DNA from: a virus
Length of the DNA stretch: 25,189 nt
IMG/VR virus record: IMGVR_UViG_3300010430_000425
Coordinates: 1-25,189 of that record
Reading direction: 5' to 3' (one strand)
In this document: piece after piece, positions 8,410-24,386 of the stretch
Layout: the number at the start of each line of letters is the position of its first letter
How positions within the stretch are numbered: position 1 is the stretch's first letter
The notes under the pieces: generated by a model
What the model was told of the DNA's origin: nothing
The model's input: only the letters and a program-made list of their open reading frames with translations
Database searches by the model: none
Position numbers and translations under genes: made by a program

Positions 8410-8703
8410 TTCACAGTAGTAGATATATAGTATAGATAGGGAGTAGATGACTGTGTAGTATCCTTCGCGTGTGTAGAGCTGTCCATTTAGTTAGAGTTAG
8501 TGCTAAGATATTGGCTAAGGCCTTGATATCATTGACTGTATAGCTATAGATGGCTAGTGATACTGTCTAGTATTGTCATATGAATGCAGTGATTATGTCT
8601 GTTAATTGATGAGATTGATAGCTATTACCACAGTATTACATAGTAATAGTGAGATACTTCTGTCCAGTTACTGGTCTTAACTCACTCAACTGTATATACA
8701 CTA

Positions 8704-8727
8704 CACAAGAAAACTTCGGTGCTTGTG
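8704..8727 (+). other. Hairpin capped by a UUCG tetraloop
   Basis: CACAAG (8704-8709) pairs with CTTGTG (8722-8727). Inside, AC-TTCG-GT forms a second short stem closed by C(UUCG)G, a very stable RNA tetraloop when read on the plus strand. An AAA/G internal loop separates the stems. No T-tract follows and no plus-strand gene is near. Confidence 0.4.
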
Positions 8728-8737
8728 GGTGTGGAAG

Positions 8738-8752
8738 TATACTATAAGTATA
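8738..8752. other. 6-bp palindromic operator-like dyad
   Basis: TATACT (8738-8743) and AGTATA (8747-8752) form an inverted repeat around ATA. It could be a protein-binding site near the tandem repeats. A chance AT-rich palindrome cannot be excluded. Confidence 0.3.
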
Positions 8753-8794
8753 TCTTTGTGGTACTCTTACCGTTCGTCTGACCTGAGTGGTGAT

Positions 8795-8888
8795 ATAGAT
8801 GGATGACTGATTATAGGTACAGTTGCTTAGGTGCTCGTGGTTGAACTAACGAGAGTTCCTCGTATGTTTGCAAGGGGGTATAATTGCG
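8795..8888. repeat. Tandem noncoding repeat, copy A
   Basis: About 94 bp, repeated at 8903-8997 with a 108-bp period. The two copies share an exact 24-bp core (8807-8830), then a more variable middle, and again agree near the end (TTGCAAGG, GGGGTATAATT). On the minus strand the core contains TATAAT with ACGAGC 17 bp upstream, which may be a promoter for a non-host sigma factor. Eighteen bases (8829-8846) recur inside the gene at 9516-9776. Confidence 0.75.
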
Positions 8889-8902
8889 ACTGTTATTGTA
8901 GA

Positions 8903-8997
8903 ATAGATGGATAACTGATTATAGGTACAGTTGCTTAGATGCTCATAGCTGAACGAACTGATAGTGGTTGGTATGATTGCAAGGGGTATAATTACGG
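8903..8997. repeat. Tandem noncoding repeat, copy B
   Basis: Second copy of the ~95-bp repeat, with the exact 24-bp core at 8915-8938. The minus-strand TATAAT here is preceded by ATGAGC at the same 17-bp distance as ACGAGC in copy A. Its position just beyond the end of terS suits a terminase-binding or regulatory array. Confidence 0.75.
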
Positions 8998-9010
8998 TTG
9001 AATTAGCTAA

Positions 9011-9031
9011 GGACTCATTATTACTGAGCCC
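9011..9031 (-). other. Hairpin 12 bases after the terS stop
   Basis: GGGCTCA and TGAGTCC (minus strand) pair over 7 bp with one G-U, around a 7-base loop. The downstream sequence (CTTAGCTAATTC) lacks a clear U-tract, so it is a weak terminator at best. It may protect the terS mRNA 3' end or attenuate transcription into the gene-poor region. Confidence 0.4.
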
Positions 9032-9042
9032 TCTATTTAATG

Positions 9043-9516
9043 CTATTGGTCTGATATGACCTTGGAGTTATCTGTTAGTGCTTCGTTAGGTTCAGCATAG
9101 TTCATGATGATCATCTTGGGTGCTAATGCATCTCCTGACACTTCTATCTTAGTTGATGTGTTAAACCTACGTGATAATATAGGAGCCATCTTACCGAGTA
9201 CGAACTTGCTCTCATCTATCCGACGCTTCAACGTTGCTTCCGCTTGTCTCCAATCCTCTACATCTGGATATGCTTCTTGAGCTGTCTGTCCTGCTATACG
9301 ATGTAATTCATCCATTCTATGCATCAACAATACAGTATATGCTTGGTTGATGTCCTCAGCGAATGCTTTATCTTGGACTGATTTCCTATAAATGCTATCT
9401 TTGTGTGGCACTTTATCAGGCCATTTCTCAGATATTTGACTGATATCATTGCCTTCTGCCATCTTTTGGAGTATGAAGTTCTTCACTTCTTTACTGAATC
9501 TTATCTGTTTGCCCAT
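9043..9516 (-). CDS. terS: Terminase small subunit (DNA recognition)
   Basis: A 157-residue protein with an N-terminal helix-turn-helix region (VKNFILQKMAEGNDISQISE, then DSIYRKSVQDKAFAEDINQAY at about 35-60), a helical oligomerisation part with MDELHRIAG and LKRRIDESKFVLGKMAP, and a C-terminal tail with TKIEVSGDA. This order is that of Bbp20-like small terminases: Gly-x-Ser-type HTH, Trp/Tyr-rich linker, Asp-Glu-x-x-x-Ile-Ala helix, then the Lys-Arg-Arg segment. The protein picks the packaging site and stimulates TerL. The SD is AAGGAG, and the start overlaps the upstream stop by one base. It is followed by a gene-poor region that may hold its target. Confidence 0.72.
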   Translation of the reverse strand: MGKQIRFSKEVKNFILQKMAEGNDISQISEKWPDKVPHKDSIYRKSVQDKAFAEDINQAYTVLLMHRMDELHRIAGQTAQEAYPDVEDWRQAEATLKRRIDESKFVLGKMAPILSRRFNTSTKIEVSGDALAPKMIIMNYAEPNEALTDNSKVISDQ

Positions 9517-9776
9517 TAATTGATCTCCTTATATATGTCTGATAACCTACCTTGCTGATCTAATACCCAGTATAATTCACACCATTCACCTATTCCTGGT
9601 TTTCTAACCAGCTCCTGAGGTGCTCGTGGTTGAACGTTCTCACCTAGGTCGTTATGATTAGATGGCTCTATTTCGGGTGCCTGTAAGCAAACATCACAAA
9701 TACGCGTCTCATTTATACTTATATAATGGTTAGTATAATAACCTACACAATACTTATTAGAACATTTTCGATTCAT
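9516..9776 (-). CDS. 86-aa cysteine-pair protein upstream of terS
   Basis: The protein begins MNRKCSNKYCVGYYTNHY and has a second pair, ICDVC, about 20 residues on: a plausible four-cysteine zinc site. The rest is polar, with a closing WCELYWVLDQQGRLSDIYKE. The start ATG 9776 is six bases after AAAGGG; the in-frame ATG at 9782 directly abuts that SD and is unlikely. It shares a TAATG junction with terS. An 18-bp stretch (9618-9635) is identical to part of noncoding repeat copy A. Function unknown; a DNA-binding partner of TerS is possible. Confidence 0.6.
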   Translation of the reverse strand: MNRKCSNKYCVGYYTNHYISINETRICDVCLQAPEIEPSNHNDLGENVQPRAPQELVRKPGIGEWCELYWVLDQQGRLSDIYKEIN

Positions 9777-9827
9777 AGTCATCCCTTTAGTTGCTTTTAA
9801 TCTGTCACCCTACACCTTTCACTTTAA

Positions 9828-9855
9828 AGTATAGTGAGACGGATGACAATTACAA
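9828..9855 (-). promoter_or_regulatory. Candidate leftward sigma70 promoter for the terS operon
   Basis: On the minus strand TTGTAA (9855-9850) and TATACT (9833-9828) are spaced by 16 bp. The start would be near 9821, some 45 nt upstream of the Zn-motif gene. A palindrome ACTTTAAAGT (9821-9830) overlaps the -10 box and the start region and could be an operator. Confidence 0.45.
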
Positions 9856-9906
9856 GGGTTAAAACCACTCAATGGTCCATCTATAAGATGAACGGTAATA
9901 TACCAC

Positions 9907-9935
9907 TTGCTATCTAGAAGGATGTATCCTATAAT
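9907..9935 (+). promoter_or_regulatory. Early sigma70 promoter P1
   Basis: TTGCTA and TATAAT are separated by exactly 17 bp, followed by the gene at 9972. The flanking bases (ACTTGCT before, CTATAATTATA at the -10) match the two near-identical cassettes at 10900 and 12536. Together with 9828-9855 it makes the divergent control region between the two arms. Confidence 0.75.
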
Positions 9936-9971
9936 TATAATAAGGGTTGATTATAGTGAGAGGTGATAAAT

Positions 9972-10328
9972 ATGAAAGACAAACTACCAATTTATTTAGA
10001 CGCACAAGAGATTCAAGTACTGATCAGCTATAAGATAGATCTTTATGCAAAGAGATTAGATATTAATGCAGACATCGAAGAGTTGAAAGTAATAGAAAAG
10101 GAAGTTGAAGATTTAACTGCGATGAGAGACATAATAAAAGAACAACCTAAAAGAGAAGTAGTAGATGATATGCTACAATCTATATGTGCATTAGAAGCTG
10201 AAGACAAGGTTATAAGCATAGACGCTCCTAAGATTAAGAGAGAAAGTATGGAAAGAATGCAAGAAGCTTTAGACTTCTTAAGCCACACAGCTAAGGTTAT
10301 ACCCTTTAAGAGAGAAGAAAATGAATAA
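9972..10328 (+). CDS. Early protein of unknown function (118 aa)
   Basis: First gene of the rightward arm. The start ATG 9972 follows GAGAGGTGAT, a near-perfect complement of the 16S rRNA 3' end; an in-frame GTG at 9963 lies inside this SD. The product is charged and largely helical, with a likely coiled coil around residues 20-65 (INADIEELKVIEKEVEDL) and no motif I recognise. Its place right after promoter P1 suggests an early host-takeover or regulatory protein. It overlaps the next ORF by 8 bp. Confidence 0.75.
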   Translation: MKDKLPIYLDAQEIQVLISYKIDLYAKRLDINADIEELKVIEKEVEDLTAMRDIIKEQPKREVVDDMLQSICALEAEDKVISIDAPKIKRESMERMQEALDFLSHTAKVIPFKREENE

Positions 10329-10497
10329 TACTGATGTAGAACTAGTTAAGAAGATACAATTCCATATAGACTGTATGATATGTGAGAAATGTTATGTAGT
10401 AAGCGAAGCACTAGCTAGTGTGTCTAACGCTACTAAAGGACTATACGAAGAGATAGATAAAGATGAGATAGCAGCATATAAAGCGGTGTACTTATGA
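10321..10497 (+). CDS. 58-aa early protein with a Cys-x-x-Cys motif
   Basis: It starts inside the end of the previous gene, whose AGAGAAG serves as SD, and ends in an ATGA overlap with the next. The sequence is helical with CMICEKC at about residues 19-25, which could bind metal or form a disulfide, and a Ser/Ala-rich middle. No family is recognised. The tight overlaps on both sides support it as a real gene. Confidence 0.6.
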   Translation: MNNTDVELVKKIQFHIDCMICEKCYVVSEALASVSNATKGLYEEIDKDEIAAYKAVYL

Positions 10498-10643
10498 GAA
10501 AGAGATTGACAGATAAACAAGGTAAAGCTATATGTAGTTTAATAGCTAATACCTATAAGGCTTCTAGTACTTACCTATGGCTGTGCTTTATACCAGGTAG
10601 TATTGTAATGACTTTCCCATTGATAGCGAGGTTAATGATATGA
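10494..10643 (+). CDS. 49-aa early membrane protein
   Basis: A basic N-terminus (MRKRLTDKQGK) is followed by a hydrophobic segment from about residue 25 to the end (YLWLCFIPGSIVMTFPLIA). It overlaps both neighbours by 4 bp (ATGA), so it belongs to the first early operon. Unrecognised. Confidence 0.6.
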   Translation: MRKRLTDKQGKAICSLIANTYKASSTYLWLCFIPGSIVMTFPLIARLMI

Positions 10644-10897
10644 ATACAAGAGATACAAGTGATTTAGTAGTGATGCTCATAGTAGGAGTGTTTATAGCAG
10701 GACTGTTAGTATTATCTCTAACTGTTATGCTTTCTAAAAGTATAGTAGGAGCTGTAGTAGGTCTACTGTTATTTATTACAGATATAGTTTTAATACGCTG
10801 TGCATATAACTCTGTAAAAGATTACTATATAGATATGAAGATTAGAAAGATAAGATTATCTAGAAGACTTAAAAGAGATGAAAAAATAAATAAATAA
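10640..10897 (+). CDS. 85-aa early two-span membrane protein
   Basis: Two hydrophobic spans (about residues 8-30 and 33-55) are followed by a strongly basic cytoplasmic tail (KIRKIRLSRRLKRDEK). It is the last gene before the second early promoter. No family is recognised. Small membrane proteins at the front of early arms often act in superinfection exclusion or host takeover, but nothing here proves either. Confidence 0.65.
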   Translation: MNTRDTSDLVVMLIVGVFIAGLLVLSLTVMLSKSIVGAVVGLLLFITDIVLIRCAYNSVKDYYIDMKIRKIRLSRRLKRDEKINK

Positions 10898-10899
10898 AC

Positions 10900-10950
10900 A
10901 CTTGCTTTTTGGATAGAGGTGTTCTATAATTATATTAAGAGGTGATTAAT
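10900..10950 (+). promoter_or_regulatory. Early sigma70 promoter cassette P2
   Basis: TTGCTT (10902-10907), 17 bp, TATAAT (10925-10930), then AAGAGGTGAT as SD. The 51-bp block is repeated at 12536-12586 with only two mismatches, so promoter, leader and ribosome-binding site were duplicated as one unit. The leader is very short, about 14 nt between predicted start and start codon. Confidence 0.85.
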
Positions 10951-10951
10951 T

Positions 10952-11179
10952 ATGAACATGAAACGTAGACAGTATTACAAAGTAGAGCACTTATGGAGAA
11001 TATTAAGAGCGGTAGCATTGTTAGCAGGGACAGGCTTGTGGTTATACACTGATGTTAACTCACATATTATATTCAGCTTTTTCGTGTTAGCAGCAGTGAT
11101 AGACCAACTTCATGGAAAGATATGTCACTTATTAGAAAAGATATTAAATTTTCAAGAACAACATAACGATTGGGAGTAA
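10952..11179 (+). CDS. 75-aa early membrane protein
   Basis: First gene under promoter P2. A basic N-terminus (MKRRQYYK) precedes two hydrophobic stretches (ILRAVALLAGTGLWLY and IIFSFFVLAAVI), then a polar tail ending HNDWE. The SD is GAGGTGAT. Unrecognised; likely an inner-membrane early protein. Confidence 0.65.
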   Translation: MNMKRRQYYKVEHLWRILRAVALLAGTGLWLYTDVNSHIIFSFFVLAAVIDQLHGKICHLLEKILNFQEQHNDWE

Positions 11180-11184
11180 GCAAT

Positions 11185-11391
11185 ATGAGATCAAAGACAG
11201 ACCTAAGTATTACAGTACTATTATGTATCAAAGTGGCACTTATATTATTCCTAGTTACAGTAATATATAATATCACCTTAGTACTAGAGATAAAAGTAGC
11301 ACCTCCAGCTGCAGGAACACATGAAATGGGTACTTGTGAGTTAAGAGGCACTAATATAGTTCCTTACGTATGTGATGAGAGAGGTAAATAA
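11185..11391 (+). CDS. 68-aa single-span membrane protein with two cysteines
   Basis: The start ATG 11185 follows GGGAG, with an in-frame GTG further up as a less likely alternative. One membrane span (about residues 8-32, ITVLLCIKVALILFLV) is followed by a polar, probably periplasmic domain with GTCELRGTNIVPYVCDE, whose two cysteines could form a disulfide. This resembles a small secreted or anchored envelope protein. Unrecognised. Confidence 0.6.
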   Translation: MRSKTDLSITVLLCIKVALILFLVTVIYNITLVLEIKVAPPAAGTHEMGTCELRGTNIVPYVCDERGK

Positions 11392-11655: not shown

Positions 11656-11781
11656 ATGAGTGAAGATACAGAACAAGGTTTGAGCAACTTACAACTACTA
11701 CAAGAGAAATATGAATCAGAAATTGAAGTAGATTGTTATTTAGCAGAGTTATTAGCAGAGATTAAAGGAGAAGTAAAATGA
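11656..11781 (+). CDS. 41-aa acidic helical protein
   Basis: An ATG after GAGAGGTGG gives a short Leu/Glu-rich helix (LQLLQEKYESEIEVDCYLAE). It ends in an ATGA overlap with the ClpP-like gene, so the two are probably co-translated and the peptide could be an accessory to it; that link is inference. Confidence 0.5.
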   Translation: MSEDTEQGLSNLQLLQEKYESEIEVDCYLAELLAEIKGEVK

Positions 11782-12533
11782 AAAGTATAATTAGAAATAT
11801 AGTCTATGCTTTTATCTATGTATTTGGCGGAATATATGTAGCTATAAAAACTCTAGTACTTAGAGGTATATTTTATGGAACCTTATTTCTAGTCGGATGG
11901 TTACTAATAGTTAAATTTCTACCTGTTACACATACAGTAGATATCAAAGCTATTTCGCATGACCCTCATAGTTACGTACTTATATTATATGCTCAAGCAA
12001 TACTAGCAATTGCTGATGAAGATGATACAGTAATACTTAGAATATATAGTCCAGGAGGCTCAGTACTAATATGTGCTGATATAATTAACAGTATAAAAGA
12101 CTCGTTAGCACATACTATTAGTTATAACGAAGGTATTGCATATAGTGCAGGTGCTGTAATAGCAATGTCTACAGATGAAGTTAAATCAGCTTATATGTCT
12201 GAATACCTATTCCATAGACCTAGAATTATGATTATGGGAATGCCTGTATTAATTAGTGATGAGTTACCAACAGTACTTATGTTAAAAGAAATGATTCACA
12301 ACGATGTATTCCAATACTTAACTTTAATAGAACAGTATAGATATCAAGCATTAATGGATGATGTTATCGTTACAGGTAGACAGATAAGAGAAAGAACAGC
12401 TAAAGGTGGATTTACAGATGCTGAACGTTACCAACAATATGTTGAATTAGTTAAGTATTCAAATGATAACCCACCAAAGACTATACAACAGAAGTTAGAT
12501 GAAACACGTAGTAAGTCAAAAAAGAACAAATAA
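11778..12533 (+). CDS. Membrane-anchored ClpP/SppA-like serine protease
   Basis: A 251-residue protein. Two membrane spans (about 8-26 and 30-48) are followed by a ClpP/crotonase-fold domain. VILRIYSPGGSVLICADII (residues 85-103) matches the ClpP/SppA oxyanion strand and Gly-Gly turn. AYSAGAVIAM puts the likely nucleophile at Ser123, and LFHRP puts the likely general base at His146, a spacing close to that of ClpP. The C-terminal 100 residues are helical and basic. The order resembles SppA or NfeD-type membrane proteases more than soluble ClpP. The third catalytic acid is not certain. Possible roles are cleavage of host membrane proteins or partnering with the phage ClpX-like unfoldase at 21323. 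The start overlaps the upstream stop. Confidence 0.72.
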   Translation: MKSIIRNIVYAFIYVFGGIYVAIKTLVLRGIFYGTLFLVGWLLIVKFLPVTHTVDIKAISHDPHSYVLILYAQAILAIADEDDTVILRIYSPGGSVLICADIINSIKDSLAHTISYNEGIAYSAGAVIAMSTDEVKSAYMSEYLFHRPRIMIMGMPVLISDELPTVLMLKEMIHNDVFQYLTLIEQYRYQALMDDVIVTGRQIRERTAKGGFTDAERYQQYVELVKYSNDNPPKTIQQKLDETRSKSKKNK

Positions 12534-12535
12534 AG

Positions 12536-12586
12536 ACTTGCTTTTTGGATAAAGGTGTTCTATAATTATATTAAGAGGTGATAAAT
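12536..12586 (+). promoter_or_regulatory. Early sigma70 promoter cassette P3
   Basis: TTGCTT (12538-12543), 17 bp, TATAAT (12561-12566) and an AAGAGGTGAT SD. It is a near-exact copy of the block at 10900-10950 and drives the SbmA-like gene. Confidence 0.85.
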
Positions 12587-13429
12587 ATGAAAATAAAGAA
12601 TATAAAAAACTGCAAACCACTCTTAGTAGTTATAGGACTTATCCTTTTAGGAGAAAGTATATTTACAGGGCTTATACCTCACTCTAGAGGATACTTGTTC
12701 GGATTATTACAATCTCAAACAGGCCCTATATACTTGGCTTTAGGTGTATACTTGACTAATTACTTATGTTTAGATTTCTTTTGCGCTGTAAAAGGCTACG
12801 CTATAATTAAGACATCTTTACTATTTAGAACAGCTAGAACAGAAGAAACTATTAAGAAAGTTAAAGGAGAGGTAGAGAACACTCCTCAAAGAATTCAAGA
12901 AGATATCAAGTTAAGCTATGAAAGTAGGTTCATAGTATGGTCTGAGTACATAATATCAGGGATAATTGTTATACAATTGATAATTATTAACTTGTCTCAA
13001 CCAATATTAATCTTCGCGGCCTTGACATATGCTGGAATAAGTGTCATAATTGCATTAAGGTTTAACCCGAAGTTAACTAGAGCAGAAAAAGAAGTGCAGA
13101 GAACAGAAGCTACATATAGACACAGTCTTATAGACAGCTTAAGCTTAACATGCTTACCATTAGCTAACAAAGCTAACCTTATGGCAGCTAAGATAAGAAC
13201 GCACTACTTACTATTTACTAGACTTCAGTTAGGAGTTATGTCAGTATTACCATATGTTGTATTGATACCAAGCTTATTATCAGGAGATATAGATTTAGGA
13301 ACATTGGTTAAGCATCAGGCTACATTTGCATTAATAGTAGTAAACGCAAGTATATTAATACAGTTATATCCTAAGTTAGTTAAAGGTAGAGCATCAGAGG
13401 AAAGAGTAAGAGAGGTGGAAAATGATTAA
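12587..13429 (+). CDS. SbmA/BacA-like membrane protein (transporter domain)
   Basis: A 280-residue protein with about six hydrophobic segments (near 11-29, 47-66, 116-136, 138-157, 211-231 and 244-262). Between spans two and three is VENTPQRIQED (residues 96-106), matching the E-x-x-x-Q-R-[IV]-Q-E-D signature of SbmA/BacA and of ABCD-type transporter membrane domains. EVQRTEATYRHSL (169-181) matches the second family motif R-V-E-A-x-Y-R-x-x-L. E. coli SbmA is about 406 aa and imports peptide antibiotics such as microcins using the proton gradient. This version is shorter, and no nucleotide-binding domain is nearby. The start ATG 12587 has SD GAGGTGAT; the GTG at 12578 lies inside it. Its role in a phage is unknown; it could interfere with the host transporter or the envelope. 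Confidence 0.72.
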   Translation: MKIKNIKNCKPLLVVIGLILLGESIFTGLIPHSRGYLFGLLQSQTGPIYLALGVYLTNYLCLDFFCAVKGYAIIKTSLLFRTARTEETIKKVKGEVENTPQRIQEDIKLSYESRFIVWSEYIISGIIVIQLIIINLSQPILIFAALTYAGISVIIALRFNPKLTRAEKEVQRTEATYRHSLIDSLSLTCLPLANKANLMAAKIRTHYLLFTRLQLGVMSVLPYVVLIPSLLSGDIDLGTLVKHQATFALIVVNASILIQLYPKLVKGRASEERVREVEND

Positions 13430-13667
13430 AGAATACATTATAGATGGTGAAACGTTTCAACACGTTACATATAACGACGGAACTACTAGACTTTTCAACG
13501 ATGAAGGTATAGGAAGCATAGTAGATATAGATAATGAACTAGAACATGTAGTATTTAAAACATCAGACTACTGTAAGCAAGGATACGTAGAAGACGACAC
13601 AACATATCTTTCAAAGAGTCCTAGGAATCTTAAGAGATTACAAGATAGCATAAATGGAGGAGAGTAG
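13422..13667 (+). CDS. 81-aa hypothetical protein
   Basis: The start overlaps the SbmA-like gene by 8 bp, with SD AGAGAGGTGG. The product is a polar alpha/beta protein beginning MIKEYIIDGETFQHVTYNDG, with likely N-terminal beta hairpins. No known motif. It precedes the holin with no gap, and its last codons carry the holin SD (GGAGGAGAG). Confidence 0.6.
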   Translation: MIKEYIIDGETFQHVTYNDGTTRLFNDEGIGSIVDIDNELEHVVFKTSDYCKQGYVEDDTTYLSKSPRNLKRLQDSINGGE

Positions 13668-14078
13668 ATGATAGGCGGTATAATAACAGCGATAAGCGGT
13701 ATAGGAAAGGCTTTCTTTGGAGCTAAACAAGCTAAAGCAGAGATTATTAATAAAGCTATAGGCGTTGTAGGCGACATAAATAAGTCAGATGATGCAAGAG
13801 CAGTAGCTGCAGCTCAAATTATAACTGCAGAAGCTCGTTCTGAAAGCGTTATAACTAGAGTTTGGAGACCAGCGGTAGTACTAGGTTTCACAACCATACT
13901 GTTCGCTTACTTCTTTGGATTTATCCCAGAGAATGTGACCCCTAGGATACTAGATCGTATATTTGATATAGTAGAATACTCAGTATTAGGTTACATGGGA
14001 ATGAGAAGTATGGACAAATGGATAAGAGACTTATCACTAGGTTCAATAATTAAGAAGATAGTGGAGAAAAAGTTATGA
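13668..14078 (+). CDS. Holin of the 3TM family
   Basis: A 136-residue protein with the signature of the Holin_3TM family. The N-terminal amphipathic part has IINKAIGVVGDINKSDDAR (about 25-43), then AAAQIITAEARSESVITRVWRP, two hydrophobic spans (about 71-85 and 97-113) and the closing GYMGMRSMDKWI, close to the family ending GGY-x-x-GRS-x-EK. Holins open the inner membrane at a set time so that endolysin reaches the peptidoglycan. The matching lysozyme is about 10 kb away, which is unusual for a lysis pair. Confidence 0.82.
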   Translation: MIGGIITAISGIGKAFFGAKQAKAEIINKAIGVVGDINKSDDARAVAAAQIITAEARSESVITRVWRPAVVLGFTTILFAYFFGFIPENVTPRILDRIFDIVEYSVLGYMGMRSMDKWIRDLSLGSIIKKIVEKKL

Positions 14079-18949: not shown

Positions 18950-19049
18950 GCCAAGTTGCAGATATTGCGAGATAATTCGCACATTAGGGGTTATATTAAT
19001 GGTTATAATCAACATTTCAACATTATTAGTAGTTTCGGGGGTATTATGA
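18942..19049 (+). CDS. 35-aa Cys-x-x-Cys membrane peptide
   Basis: An ATG inside the end of the sigma gene opens a short frame with SCRYCEII and one hydrophobic span (LGVILMVIINISTLLVV). It overlaps the next start in ATGA fashion. Its size makes it uncertain, but the double overlap fits the compact operon. Confidence 0.45.
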   Translation: MDKPSCRYCEIIRTLGVILMVIINISTLLVVSGVL

Positions 19050-19645
19050 GAAGAAGTAACACATGTTTAGCAGTGATAAGAGACGATAAAGGGACACTAT
19101 GGTTTGCAGGAGACAGAAGAATATCATGGCATTTCGGCAAAGCTCTTAAGTCACCTAGACCTAAGATAACTTACAGAAATAAAGTACTGTTAGCAGGTAC
19201 AGGTACTAGTTGTATATGCGATTTAGTAACTGATCAATTTGATATACCTATTAAAACAGATCAGCAAGATACTTTCAATTACATACATACAACATTCGTA
19301 CCTAAGCTAATTAAATGGTTAAGACAAGAAGGTTGGGTATCTGAAGGTGAACGTAAACTATCTACTTCTGACGACGACGGTAAATCTGAATTAGGTGCTA
19401 CAATATTAATAGGTGTAGAGTCAGACTTATATGAACTAGATATAGATACTAACATGATATGTGCAGATGTTATAGATGCTCCTTATGCTGCAGGTTGTGG
19501 TGGTGCTCTAGCGCATGGTTCGCTCCTTACTACAGAAAGCTTAGACTACTCTCCTAAGAAGAGACTGACTATAGCTTTAAAGGTAGCAGCCAAAGTGTCA
19601 CCTGGTTGTGATGACAACGTAGATATCTTAAACAATAGGAAGTAA
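19046..19645 (+). CDS. HslV/proteasome-like Ntn-hydrolase peptidase
   Basis: A 199-residue protein. After a five-residue leader (MRRSN) comes Thr6, the expected catalytic N-terminal threonine after processing. Asp23 in FAGDRRIS and Lys40 in RPKITYR fall at relative positions 18 and 35, near the proteasome/HslV Asp17 and Lys33. LLAGTGTS follows the Lys. The C-terminal half has LGATILIGVESDLYELD, YAAGCGGALAHGSLL and ALKVAAKVSPGCDDNVDIL, matching the HslV pattern of I-G-S-G-G and the final helix pair. Host HslV is a double hexamer fed by HslU. The start ATG 19046 follows GGGGG by five bases. A partner may be the ClpX-like ATPase at 21323; that is inference. Confidence 0.78.
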   Translation: MRRSNTCLAVIRDDKGTLWFAGDRRISWHFGKALKSPRPKITYRNKVLLAGTGTSCICDLVTDQFDIPIKTDQQDTFNYIHTTFVPKLIKWLRQEGWVSEGERKLSTSDDDGKSELGATILIGVESDLYELDIDTNMICADVIDAPYAAGCGGALAHGSLLTTESLDYSPKKRLTIALKVAAKVSPGCDDNVDILNNRK

Positions 19646-20182: not shown

Positions 20183-20564
20183 AGACTTACAATGTGCTGT
20201 ATACTATATAGCTAAAATGTATAATCGTATATTCGATATGACCCCTATGTTCGCCTATAACGAGGAAGACGATGAGCTGATCTACAGCCGTATGGAATAT
20301 TGGGCATCTACTGAGTTAGAGTTAGAGTTTATGTGCAAATTAGTAATTAAATGTATAGAGAAGTTCCCTGAGTCTGCTGAATATATAGTGCAAGACTTAC
20401 TAAGGAACATTAATAAAAGAGGATCTGTGTCTATCGAGCTAGCTTGGCAGCATGGGTATTTAACTAAAGCAATGGAAAGTAGCTGTGAAGAAGATTGCTA
20501 TGAACTACAACTACTAACAGATTATAGTTTAACAGGAAGTTTAATAGGAGAGGATGATGAGTAA
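20169..20564 (+). CDS. 131-aa hypothetical protein
   Basis: The start ATG 20169 has GGAGGTGAAG upstream, inside the end of RusA (14-bp overlap). The product is acidic and helical, with clusters YNEEDDELIY and SSCEEDCYELQ, and no recognised domain. It is positioned between two nucleases and overlaps the next gene, so it is likely part of the replication/recombination operon. Confidence 0.55.
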   Translation: MKLNEDLQCAVYYIAKMYNRIFDMTPMFAYNEEDDELIYSRMEYWASTELELEFMCKLVIKCIEKFPESAEYIVQDLLRNINKRGSVSIELAWQHGYLTKAMESSCEEDCYELQLLTDYSLTGSLIGEDDE

Positions 20565-21321
20565 ACCAAAAATACTATTTTACGATATAGAGACAACACC
20601 ACTACAAGCGTGGATATGGCGCCCTGGTAAACAAGTAGTAAGGCCTGCTCAGTTAGTAGAAGGGTACACTAGAAATGATATTATATGTATATCTTACGAG
20701 TGGTTACACACTAATGAGAAGGGTACACTACATTGGGGTTATGAGAAACAGAACTCTAAACAAATGGTTAAAGACTTTACCAAGATTTGCCATGAAGCAG
20801 ATTTAATAATTGGTAAGAACAATAAGAGATTCGATGATAAACATCTTAACTCAGCTAGGTTATGGCACGGTTTAGCAGGTGCTCCTGACCTTTTAAGTAA
20901 GGTAGATGATCTAGAGACTCAAATGAGAAGACACTTTGCTTTAGCCTCATATGGCCTTGATTACTTCTCTGAAGAATTAGGCTTTGGTGGTAAAACTAAG
21001 ATGTGCTTTGACGATTGGATAAATATAGTCTATACTAAAGGTAAGGCCTCTTATAATAAGATGCTAAAATATTGTGCTAAAGATGTACATGATACTAAAT
21101 TGATATGGAAGCATTGCGAAAAGCATTTCCAACCTAAGTTTAACTACTCCACATTTAGTGGTAACATGGTTTGTAAAGTGTGCGGTAGTAAGAACATTCG
21201 CAAGAACGGAACTAGGACAAGTACTTCAGGGATGGTGTCTCAGAATTATTTCTGTACTGACCATAACGGTTATGCAGGGAAACTTAATTTGAATGCCCGT
21301 AAGCCGGTGCTTAGGAGTTAA
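20557..21321 (+). CDS. DnaQ-like 3'-5' exonuclease with C-terminal zinc ribbon
   Basis: A 254-residue RNase H-fold exonuclease. ILFYDIETTP (6-15) supplies Asp10 and Glu12, a middle LIIGKNNKRFDDK segment gives the second motif, and YCAKDVHDTKLI the last acidic motif. After about residue 205, MVCKVCGSKNIRKNGTRT and NYFCTDHNG form a zinc-ribbon-like end like those of transposon and IS proteins (C-x2-C plus C/H). This could bind DNA or RNA. As the polymerase at 14888 already has an exonuclease domain, this one may act in repair or in mRNA or host DNA turnover. The start is ATG 20557, with AGGAG six bases upstream. Confidence 0.8.
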   Translation: MSKPKILFYDIETTPLQAWIWRPGKQVVRPAQLVEGYTRNDIICISYEWLHTNEKGTLHWGYEKQNSKQMVKDFTKICHEADLIIGKNNKRFDDKHLNSARLWHGLAGAPDLLSKVDDLETQMRRHFALASYGLDYFSEELGFGGKTKMCFDDWINIVYTKGKASYNKMLKYCAKDVHDTKLIWKHCEKHFQPKFNYSTFSGNMVCKVCGSKNIRKNGTRTSTSGMVSQNYFCTDHNGYAGKLNLNARKPVLRS

Positions 21322-21322
21322 T

Positions 21323-22324
21323 ATGATAAACGTAGACTTAATAAAGAGGAGTATATCGCCTAAAAAGATATATGACGAGATGAACAAGACTATAGTAGGT
21401 CAGCATAAAGCTAAAAAGCTAGTAGCCAATGCAGTGTTCCTACACATAGTTAGGTTCTTTCAAGCTCAAGATCAAAATAGGAACGACCTTAAAAAGTCTA
21501 ACGTACTATTGATGGGTCCTACAGGCTGTGGTAAAACCTTAATGGTTAGAGAAGCTGCAAGAGCCGTTAATACAATACTAAAGTTAAAAGGCTTATGCCC
21601 AGTCGCTGAGATAGATTGTACATCTATAACTCCAGAAGGCTGGTCAGGAGACGACTTAAGTGATATGTTAGAAGAACATGTTCTAGATATAAAGTCTAAA
21701 GACCCATCAGCTACTGCTGGTTCTACAATAGTCTTCTTAGATGAGTTCGATAAGTTATGTAAACCTGCTATAGGAAGTGGTGGAACTGATCATAATAAGA
21801 ATACTCAATATAGTTTACTTAAGATAGCTGAAGGTAAGAAGATAATAGGTAAGAAGATAGACTTTCATACTGATAACTACTTATTCATATTAGGTGGTAA
21901 CTTCTCAGAGATAAGAGATATGAGAGCTGAAAGGAAAGCAAATAAGTTCATAGGATTTAACGAACCTAAAGTTAAGAAAGAGTATATAGATTACCACGTA
22001 GAACTTGAGAAGTTAGGTATGTCTACTCAAATGATAGGACGTACACCTTATGTAGGTGAGTTAGACCAATTGAACGCTAAGGAACTTTTAACTATATTAG
22101 ATATGCACTTGATCCCTGAGTACCAAGATACTTGGAATTACTTAGAGAAAGGTGAGATCATAGTTCCTACTAAAGCGCGTAATAAAATGGTTAAGCAGTG
22201 TATTGCTAGAAAGACTGGAGCTAGAGGGTTACAAACCGATATGGCTAACTTTGTAGAAGACACTATATTTGATACTGAATTTAACTTAAATGCGAGGCGT
22301 GAAGATGACATTAAAAAGATATAG
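21323..22324 (+). CDS. ClpX-like AAA+ unfoldase with IGF loop, no zinc domain
   Basis: A 333-residue AAA+ protein aligned by eye to ClpX. It has KIYDEMNKTIVGQHKAKKLV, Walker A GPTGCGKT (65-72), a pore loop GWSG (106-109; ClpX GYVG), Walker B FLDEFD (138-143), YSLLKIAEGKKI, a sensor segment FILGGN (188-193), IGF (210-212) in KFIGFNEPKV, the Arg finger region MIGRTP (237-242) and sensor 2 ARKTGARGL (295-303). The N-terminal zinc-binding domain of ClpX is absent, and there is no HslU-type I-domain between the Walker motifs. IGF is the loop that docks ClpX onto ClpP. It should unfold proteins; its partner may be host ClpP or a phage peptidase. The start ATG 21323 follows GGAG. Confidence 0.88.
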   Translation: MINVDLIKRSISPKKIYDEMNKTIVGQHKAKKLVANAVFLHIVRFFQAQDQNRNDLKKSNVLLMGPTGCGKTLMVREAARAVNTILKLKGLCPVAEIDCTSITPEGWSGDDLSDMLEEHVLDIKSKDPSATAGSTIVFLDEFDKLCKPAIGSGGTDHNKNTQYSLLKIAEGKKIIGKKIDFHTDNYLFILGGNFSEIRDMRAERKANKFIGFNEPKVKKEYIDYHVELEKLGMSTQMIGRTPYVGELDQLNAKELLTILDMHLIPEYQDTWNYLEKGEIIVPTKARNKMVKQCIARKTGARGLQTDMANFVEDTIFDTEFNLNARREDDIKKI

Positions 22325-22658: not shown

Positions 22659-22876
22659 TTATATTAGATATCTTAGTATTCATATTTGGGGTTGCTGGAG
22701 CTTTACTTTTAATTTATAAAAATAAGTTAGGGTTCTTGAGCTTCATAATTCACAGTATAATCTGGGGTATCATGTCTTATATAGACGGTAACTATGGAGC
22801 TTTAGCTACTTGTGTAGTCTTTATAGTTATAGATAGCTTCGGGTATTGGAAATGGAGGGTAGAGCATGTTGTATAA
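22655..22876 (+). CDS. 73-aa PnuC-like membrane protein
   Basis: The sequence is hydrophobic almost throughout (ILVFIFGVAGALLLIY and FLSFIIHSIIWGIMSY), ending with YGALATCVVFIVIDSFGYWKW. The last span, with a conserved Gly-Tyr-x-x-Trp end, resembles small phage PnuC-like proteins annotated as nicotinamide riboside/NMN transporters. It may also be an unrelated short membrane protein; 73 residues is much shorter than bacterial PnuC. ATGA overlap with the previous gene. Confidence 0.5.
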   Translation: MIILDILVFIFGVAGALLLIYKNKLGFLSFIIHSIIWGIMSYIDGNYGALATCVVFIVIDSFGYWKWRVEHVV

Positions 22877-23696: not shown

Positions 23697-23956
23697 TGTT
23701 GTATTATCATAAAGGTATGCACCGCCTCGGGGCGGCTTTTGTGCGTGTGGCAAATATAGAACATAAAGAAGATGGTGTGTATATAAATGTACATAAGGAC
23801 TTTGATGATGGCGGGTTAGTAGCTATAGATGAGAACACGGGTGAAGAGCTGATGGTGCTAGAGGATGATGATTTTGCAATAATGCTTCTTAATGCTAAGT
23901 ATATTAGCTATGATGATTATATAGAAGGCATAGATGGTGTAAACGATGAAGATTAG
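23696..23956 (+). CDS. 86-aa acidic protein with embedded GC-rich hairpin
   Basis: A frame from ATG 23696 encodes an acidic alpha/beta protein (DGVYINVHKDFDDGGL, ENTGEELMVLEDDDF). Codons 9-15 (HRLGAAF) come from an unusually GC-rich hairpin (23719-23744) that looks like an intrinsic terminator. SD support for the start is weak. Downstream GTG codons near 23741-23749 are alternatives. No family is recognised. It overlaps the lysozyme start by 11 bp. Confidence 0.5.
   Translation: MLYYHKGMHRLGAAFVRVANIEHKEDGVYINVHKDFDDGGLVAIDENTGEELMVLEDDDFAIMLLNAKYISYDDYIEGIDGVNDED
23719..23744 (+). terminator. GC-rich terminator-like hairpin within a coding frame
   Basis: CCGCC (23722-23726) and GGCGG (23731-23735) flank a TCGG loop, with outer GCAC and GTGC flanks and a CTTTTG run. 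The stem is strikingly GC-rich for this genome. The T-tract is short (4), so termination may be partial, reducing transcription into the lysozyme. Confidence 0.5.
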
Positions 23957-24386
23957 TCAAAGAGGTATAGACCTCATTAGAAGATATGAAGGATGTAAGT
24001 TAGATGCTTACTTATGTCAAGCTGGTGTACCTACAATTGGGTATGGTCATACTAAAGATGTTAAATTAGGGGATACTATAAACTTGGGAGAGGCTCAGGA
24101 CCTACTTAGAGACGATTTACAGGGTTTTGAGAAGGGTGTTAGTAGGATAGTGGCTGTGAAGCTGGAACAATGTCAGTATGACGCTCTAGTTAGCTTTTCG
24201 TTTAATCTTGGGTTAGGTAGTTTGAAGTCATCTACTCTACTTAAGAAGTTAAATAAGGGTAGTTACATGGGTGCTGCTCGTGAGTTTCCTAGGTGGAATA
24301 AGGTTAGAGTAGGCGGTAAGTTGATAGTATCAAGAGGATTAGTTAATAGACGTAAATCAGAACAGGATTGTTTCCTTGACAAATGA
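23946..24386 (+). CDS. Endolysin, T4/R21-type lysozyme (GH24)
   Basis: A 146-residue muramidase. Glu16 in RYEG, Cys25 in YLCQAGVPT and Thr31 in PTIGYGHT form the E-8-C-5-T triad of phage 21 R21 lysozyme, the Cys replacing the Asp of T4 lysozyme. QYDALVSFSFNLG and RGLVNRRKSEQDCF are further GH24 signatures. It cuts peptidoglycan between MurNAc and GlcNAc. No N-terminal signal-anchor is seen, so it should need the holin (13668) for release. It closes the rightward operon. Confidence 0.92.
   Translation: MKISQRGIDLIRRYEGCKLDAYLCQAGVPTIGYGHTKDVKLGDTINLGEAQDLLRDDLQGFEKGVSRIVAVKLEQCQYDALVSFSFNLGLGSLKSSTLLKKLNKGSYMGAAREFPRWNKVRVGGKLIVSRGLVNRRKSEQDCFLDK

Follow-up and report, generated by a model that had tools for sequence, protein, structure and literature searches.

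The window analysed here is the whole of the 25,189-base IMG/VR virus record IMGVR_UViG_3300010430_000425, which is linear and probably a fragment. It encodes a transmembrane protein that lies, together with its control region and neighbours, among the following features, in which invariance refers to the five phage proteins described below:

9887-9955, plus strand: third, weaker copy of the putative promoter cassette, 5' of the first rightward gene
10882-10950, plus strand: second copy of the cassette, 5' of the ORF at 10952-11179
11778-12533, plus strand: upstream neighbour, a ClpP-like peptidase with a hydrophobic N-terminal anchor (Pfam CLP_protease, 35.6 bits; phrog_1827)
12518-12586, plus strand: putative promoter and ribosome-binding cassette directly 5' of the transporter gene, TTGCTT-16-TATAAT followed by the ribosome site AGAGGTG
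12587-13429, plus strand: transporter gene, an ORF of 280 residues from the ATG at 12587 to the stop codon ending at 13429; an NBD-less type IV (SbmA/ABC-exporter-like) transmembrane protein with six TM helices
12653-12655, plus strand: E23 in TM1, invariant in all five phage proteins and E in no SLiPT consensus; phage-only
12791-12793, plus strand: K69 in TM2, invariant in all five phage proteins, found in no SLiPT, and K in 9 of the 47 ABC proteins
12872-12904, plus strand: motif VENTPQRIQED, residues 96-106, in which E105 corresponds to the ladder residue E193 of SbmA
12944-12946, plus strand: E120 in TM3, invariant in all five phage proteins; phage-only
13085-13129, plus strand: start of ICL2, with E167 (E269 of SbmA), the motif EVQRTEATYRHSL (residues 169-181, 13091-13129) and E174 (E276 of SbmA)
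13109-13297, plus strand: shortened stretch from ICL2 to TM6, 63 residues between E174 and G238, in which the coupling-helix region is lost
13422-13667, plus strand: downstream neighbour of 81 residues that overlaps the end of the transporter gene and has no family match
13668-14078, plus strand: holin-like protein (GTA_holin_3TM / phrog_3427), one gene after the transporter

A GTG at 12578 is an unlikely start codon because it sits inside the ribosome-binding site. The packaging and structural genes of the window, among them a head-tail adaptor and terminases, are read leftward, and the rightward genes include DNA polymerase A, a RecE-like exonuclease, a sigma-like factor and a ClpX-like ATPase; no tRNA was found in the window. 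The plus-strand transporter gene comes close to the beginning of this rightward region and has its own promoter cassette. This layout agrees with the early position given in the original prediction and makes the gene probably an early one. The cassette at 12518-12586 is a 69-nt near-repeat, 91% identical to the copy at 10882-10950, which in turn is 65% identical to that at 9887-9955. The proposed cassette is thus a real repeat, but calling it a strong promoter goes beyond the signals themselves, since the -35 box TTGCTT is weak; the -10 box is a perfect TATAAT. The phage family as a whole does not share the separate promoter, since in L002, L003 and L004, three related phage contigs, the gene directly adjoins or overlaps its predecessor. 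Several small hydrophobic, probably membrane, proteins are encoded at 10494-11391, upstream of the ClpP-like gene, two of which were searched and gave no convincing family match.

Pfam search detected no NBD in the 280-residue frame, in line with the stand-alone protein of about 280 residues described at the outset, and the two motifs named then, VENTPQRIQED and EVQRTEATYRHSL, are both present. The search revealed a significant match to SbmA_BacA (PF05992; 32.4 bits against a cut-off of 24 bits, E 8.5e-8), in which residues 133-279 align with positions 156-312 of the 315-position profile, so that the similarity runs well past both motifs and through TM5 and TM6. Among the relatives, the proteins of L003 and L004 also exceed this cut-off and that of L002 falls below it (20.9 bits). 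The match is not decisive for membership of the SLiPTs, because full-length ABC proteins pass the same cut-off. In addition, residues 90-181 match ABC_membrane_2 (PF06472) at 23.9 bits, just under the cut-off of 24.4, and NCBIfam PRK12369 scores 40 bits, far under its cut-off of 385. Sequence comparison with the PDB listed SbmA alone, weakly (E 0.02), and a PHROG search with the protein gave no match.

An AlphaFold model built from 13 sequences (pLDDT 85.7, pTM 0.75) has helices at residues 6-43, 48-91, 99-134, 139-184 and 190-231 and a broken last helix at 237-259/261-279. These six long TM helices in the exporter arrangement correspond to a predicted type IV ABC-exporter/SbmA fold. Structural similarity search using Foldseek revealed SbmA as the top match (E 6.8e-7, TM 0.83), and VIA-align likewise placed SbmA first, with a Z of 21.6 and an rmsd of 2.6 Å over 279 of the 280 residues, covering SbmA residues 80-392 (the TM1-6 core). 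TAP, PCAT1, Atm1 and MsbA come next, with Z values of about 19-21, and the fold on its own therefore does not mark SbmA out from the others. The N-terminal helices TM0a and TM0b of SbmA have no counterpart in the model, the alignment starting at SbmA residue 80. This region is also absent from the PRK12369-type proteins, so the lack of TM0 is by itself no bar to SLiPT membership. In the BFVD library, no NBD-less phage relative was among the significant matches listed.

A homologous gene does occur in other phages. Scans of viral contigs revealed four further members, in L002, L003, L004 and L102, which with the window make five, all from uncultured phages; the class is so far known only from these. 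The five proteins are 272-296 residues long and 34-65% identical. The window and these contigs have further early genes in common, among them the exonuclease at 20554, a pyrophosphohydrolase-like gene (22290) and the gene at 22866, although not every contig has all of them. The presence of an intact gene in five divergent contigs with such shared early genes indicates that the transporter has been kept by the phage lineage. No ATPase domain (PF00005, ABC_tran) scored above the cut-off in four of the five phage records (G000-G003, all but that of L102), records that may be fragments. A scan of the genomes of 84,980 species, based on short patterns that could miss a bacterial copy, returned only distant Legionella ABC proteins at 19-24% identity, and a recent pick-up from a host was accordingly rejected. 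A literature search for SbmA in phages found nothing on point.

SbmA is an NBD-less, proton-driven member of the type IV fold; the glutamate ladder of the SLiPTs consists of E193, E203, E269, E276, E287 and E378, and SbmA that loses any conserved ladder glutamate is inactivated or severely impaired in transport (PMC13316013). We compared these positions in a joint alignment of 67 sequences, comprising the 5 phage proteins, 12 SLiPTs, 3 marine-phage proteins and 47 ABC proteins. All five phage proteins keep the equivalents of E193, E269 and E276 (E105, E167 and E174 in the window protein), and all five lack the other three, E203 being replaced by I/F, E287 by L/I/G and E378 by Q/K; the gate residue Y368 is replaced by I/V. 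By comparison, E203 and E287 are present in every SLiPT and every marine-phage protein, and E378 in 11 of the 12 SLiPTs and all three marine-phage proteins. With half of the six glutamates gone, the conserved charged residues do not form a complete SLiPT ladder. E193 and E276 are common in ABC proteins, whereas E269 is never E in the 47 ABC proteins, making it the sole ladder position that the phages share with SLiPTs but not with the ABC set. Moreover, E23, P31 and E120 are invariant in the phages and occur in neither the SLiPT nor the ABC group; E120 does not occupy the E203 position but lies five residues further along TM3. The five phage proteins have 62-64 residues in the stretch corresponding to E276-G350, where SLiPTs and marine-phage proteins have 73-74 and every one of the 47 ABC proteins has 81, which indicates that the coupling-helix region has been lost. 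The window protein thus has neither an ATPase domain nor coupling helices, both of which SLiPTs also lack.

In a tree computed without L102, which was found later, the phage proteins form one clade with support of 100/100, and the SLiPTs together with the marine-phage SLiPTs form another, also at 100/100, from which phage proteins of the window type are excluded. The best tree places the phage clade beside the Legionella ABC proteins, at a support of 90/76 that is not firm, and a tree constrained to join phages and SLiPTs is 2.4 log units worse and not rejected (p-AU 0.334). Profile comparison by hhalign at first gave scores of 143-158 against ABC membrane domains and 82 against SLiPTs, the ABC set having been collected partly with the phage profile itself. 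With sets chosen by the Pfam model, the scores were 108.5 for ABC proteins, 78.2 for seven SLiPTs and 109.8 for all SLiPTs plus the marine-phage proteins. As the gap shrank in this way, a closer kinship to ABC proteins than to SLiPTs was dropped, and descent from YddA is not claimed. Judged from these sequence comparisons, the phage gene represents a separate deep lineage about equally far from the SLiPTs and from the YddA/BclA membrane domains.

The SbmA/BacA SLiPTs (PF05992; E. coli SbmA, PDB 7p34 and 9g3d) share with the phage protein the TM1-6 core, the absence of an ATPase, the E193/E269/E276 positions and the motifs QxxED and EAxxR. They differ in that the phage protein has no TM0, E203, E287, E378 or Y368, an ICL2 stretch about 10 residues shorter and a separate clade, at about 20% identity. 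The full-length ABC proteins of the YddA/BclA type (ABC_membrane_2; E. coli YddA and Legionella L017-L022) share the membrane-domain fold and likewise lack E203 and E287, and the phage profile scores them equal to or above the SLiPTs; however, they have their own ATPase domain, an 81-residue ICL2 with the coupling-helix motif, and N or S at E269. The third comparable group, the putative PRK12369-type transporters, including those of marine phage contigs (L005, L008 and L012; phrog_11436 for L008), are members of the fold family, phage-borne in these contigs, that also lack the ATPase and TM0, but they are about 25% identical to the window protein, carry the full six-residue ladder and group with the SLiPTs, those of L008 and L012 scoring 437 and 484 bits, above the NCBIfam cut-off. 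The name SbmA/BacA-like therefore holds as homology to SbmA/BacA and ABCD-type membrane domains, by sequence and predicted fold. It does not extend to SbmA/BacA proper, given the three missing glutamates, the position outside the 100/100 SLiPT clade and a profile equally near YddA/BclA. SbmA is a distant cousin of the phage protein, which is not simply another SbmA, and the phage proteins are best read as a distinct class of motorless type IV membrane domain, known so far from phages alone.

Marine phage contigs encode a SLiPT of the PRK12369 type with all six ladder glutamates, at 5653-6666 in L008, 5725-6738 in L005 and 7821-8780 in L012, and the same gene occurs in L006, L007 and L032. In L008 its neighbours include genes for a T4-like glucosyltransferase, a 2OG-Fe(II) oxygenase and a dNMP kinase. 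This SLiPT is a candidate auxiliary peptide transporter of marine phages.

We propose, tentatively, that the window protein is a stand-alone transmembrane domain of the type IV ABC-exporter/SbmA fold that would act in the inner membrane as a homodimer and be produced early in infection. The missing ATPase domain and lost docking loop indicate that it is not an ordinary ATP-driven transporter, and together with an intact core in five divergent phages they point to a secondary transporter or a derivative of one. Such a transporter might switch between inward-open and outward-open forms to carry peptide-like or other amphipathic cargo, and the proton gradient would power it by way of acidic residues in a changed arrangement, with E105, E167 and E174 as in SbmA together with the phage-specific E23 and E120. 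The absence of three of the six ladder glutamates and of Y368 counts against this proposal, since losing any one of the conserved ladder glutamates already cripples SbmA (PMC13316013). A conserved fold by itself shows no function, and transport by the phage protein is best described as plausible.

The same evidence makes it unlikely that the phage protein is a bona fide SLiPT, namely a member of the SbmA/BacA family that imports peptides by proton drive and whose ladder, though degenerate, still works. Such an importer would account for the three PF05992 scores over the cut-off, the top structural match, the shared E269 and the unrejected constrained tree, but not for the loss of E203, E287, E378 and Y368 in every phage protein, the exclusion from the SLiPT clade or an ICL2 that is 9-11 residues shorter. 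We consider it quite improbable that the protein acts on host defences or transport, either by forming mixed dimers that disable a host SbmA/YddA-type protein or by blocking the entry of other phages. A mere blocker would have no need of the invariant buried charges E23 and E120, and the bacterial homologues found are only 18-25% identical, which makes mixed dimers doubtful. On the other hand, such a role would suit an early gene that has its own cassette and lies among genes for several small membrane proteins, and it would tolerate the loss of transport residues.

The surroundings of the gene bear on another explanation, in which a former transporter domain is reused as a membrane scaffold or leak, for example anchoring a phage peptidase or aiding depolarisation before lysis. 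A membrane-anchored ClpP-like peptidase lies upstream of the transporter in the window, where a holin-like gene follows, and a distant relative of this peptidase is found upstream in L004; in L002 and L003 the upstream peptidases are HslV-like. However, these peptidases belong to different families and none adjoins the gene in L102, and the full six-helix transporter core with its kept ladder residues suggests more than a scaffold, so we regard this reuse as rather improbable. Of the five phage records, four contain an HslV-like gene, which belongs to a known phage family, and two contain a ClpP-like gene. A fixed partnership with a protease was therefore dropped, and the link between transporter and peptidase is suggestive only, the ClpP-like peptidase at 11778-12533 being a possible partner in the window. 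No relatives of this protease were found in the viral contigs. The window phage carries three protease-related genes in all, the ClpP-like gene at 11778, an HslV-like peptidase at 19043-19645 (phrog_1040, 46 bits) and the ClpX-like ATPase at 21293-22324 (161 bits, under the ClpX cut-off).

Finally, the protein might be a membrane half of an ABC transporter that borrows its ATPase subunit from the host in trans. YddA-type membrane domains encoded apart from their ATPase are known in bacteria (PMC13316013), and with the phage profile E. coli YddA reaches 62.6 bits and SbmA 34.3 bits. This reading is nevertheless very improbable and was rejected, since the coupling loop is gone: in each of the 47 ABC proteins ICL2 exceeds that of the phage proteins by 17-19 residues, and the phages lack the conserved coupling-helix stretch.

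Taking the motorless secondary transporter as the preferred reading, a wider and somewhat unlikely possibility is that type IV transporters comprise not only the ATP-driven ABC proteins and the SLiPTs but also a third, phage-borne class. With its own loss of motor and docking loop, this class would run on rearranged buried acidic residues and move peptides across the host inner membrane early in infection. The cargo would then perhaps be peptide products of the ClpP-like or HslV-like peptidases of the phage. Phages would then have kept a transporter for use early in infection, something for which we found no description in the literature. SLiPTs have been proposed to arise by loss of the ATPase from a YddA-like membrane domain, and the published tree took in proteins of at least 300 residues (PMC13316013), so the phage group could not have appeared there. 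A phage lineage with no ATPase, a reduced coupling loop and half a ladder would be a natural test of what motorless transport needs.

The only annotated phage hit, an sbmA of Acinetobacter phage MD-2021a, was rejected, as it sits among bacterial chromosomal genes. The two sequences under this name, CAKLQH020000002.1 and CAKLQF020000003.1 (L025), carry sbmA among gatB, tdcB, pepO and other bacterial genes, and look like bacterial chromosome contigs filed as phage.

The lysozyme of the window (23946-24386) is most like the gene transfer agent endolysin BgtA, at 123 bits against a cut-off of 315, which hints weakly at an alphaproteobacterial host. In L003, translations near the transporter gene read as ankyrin-repeat-like proteins (8495-9631 and 9742-10152). 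Such proteins are unusual in phages, and they perhaps point to a eukaryote-associated host.
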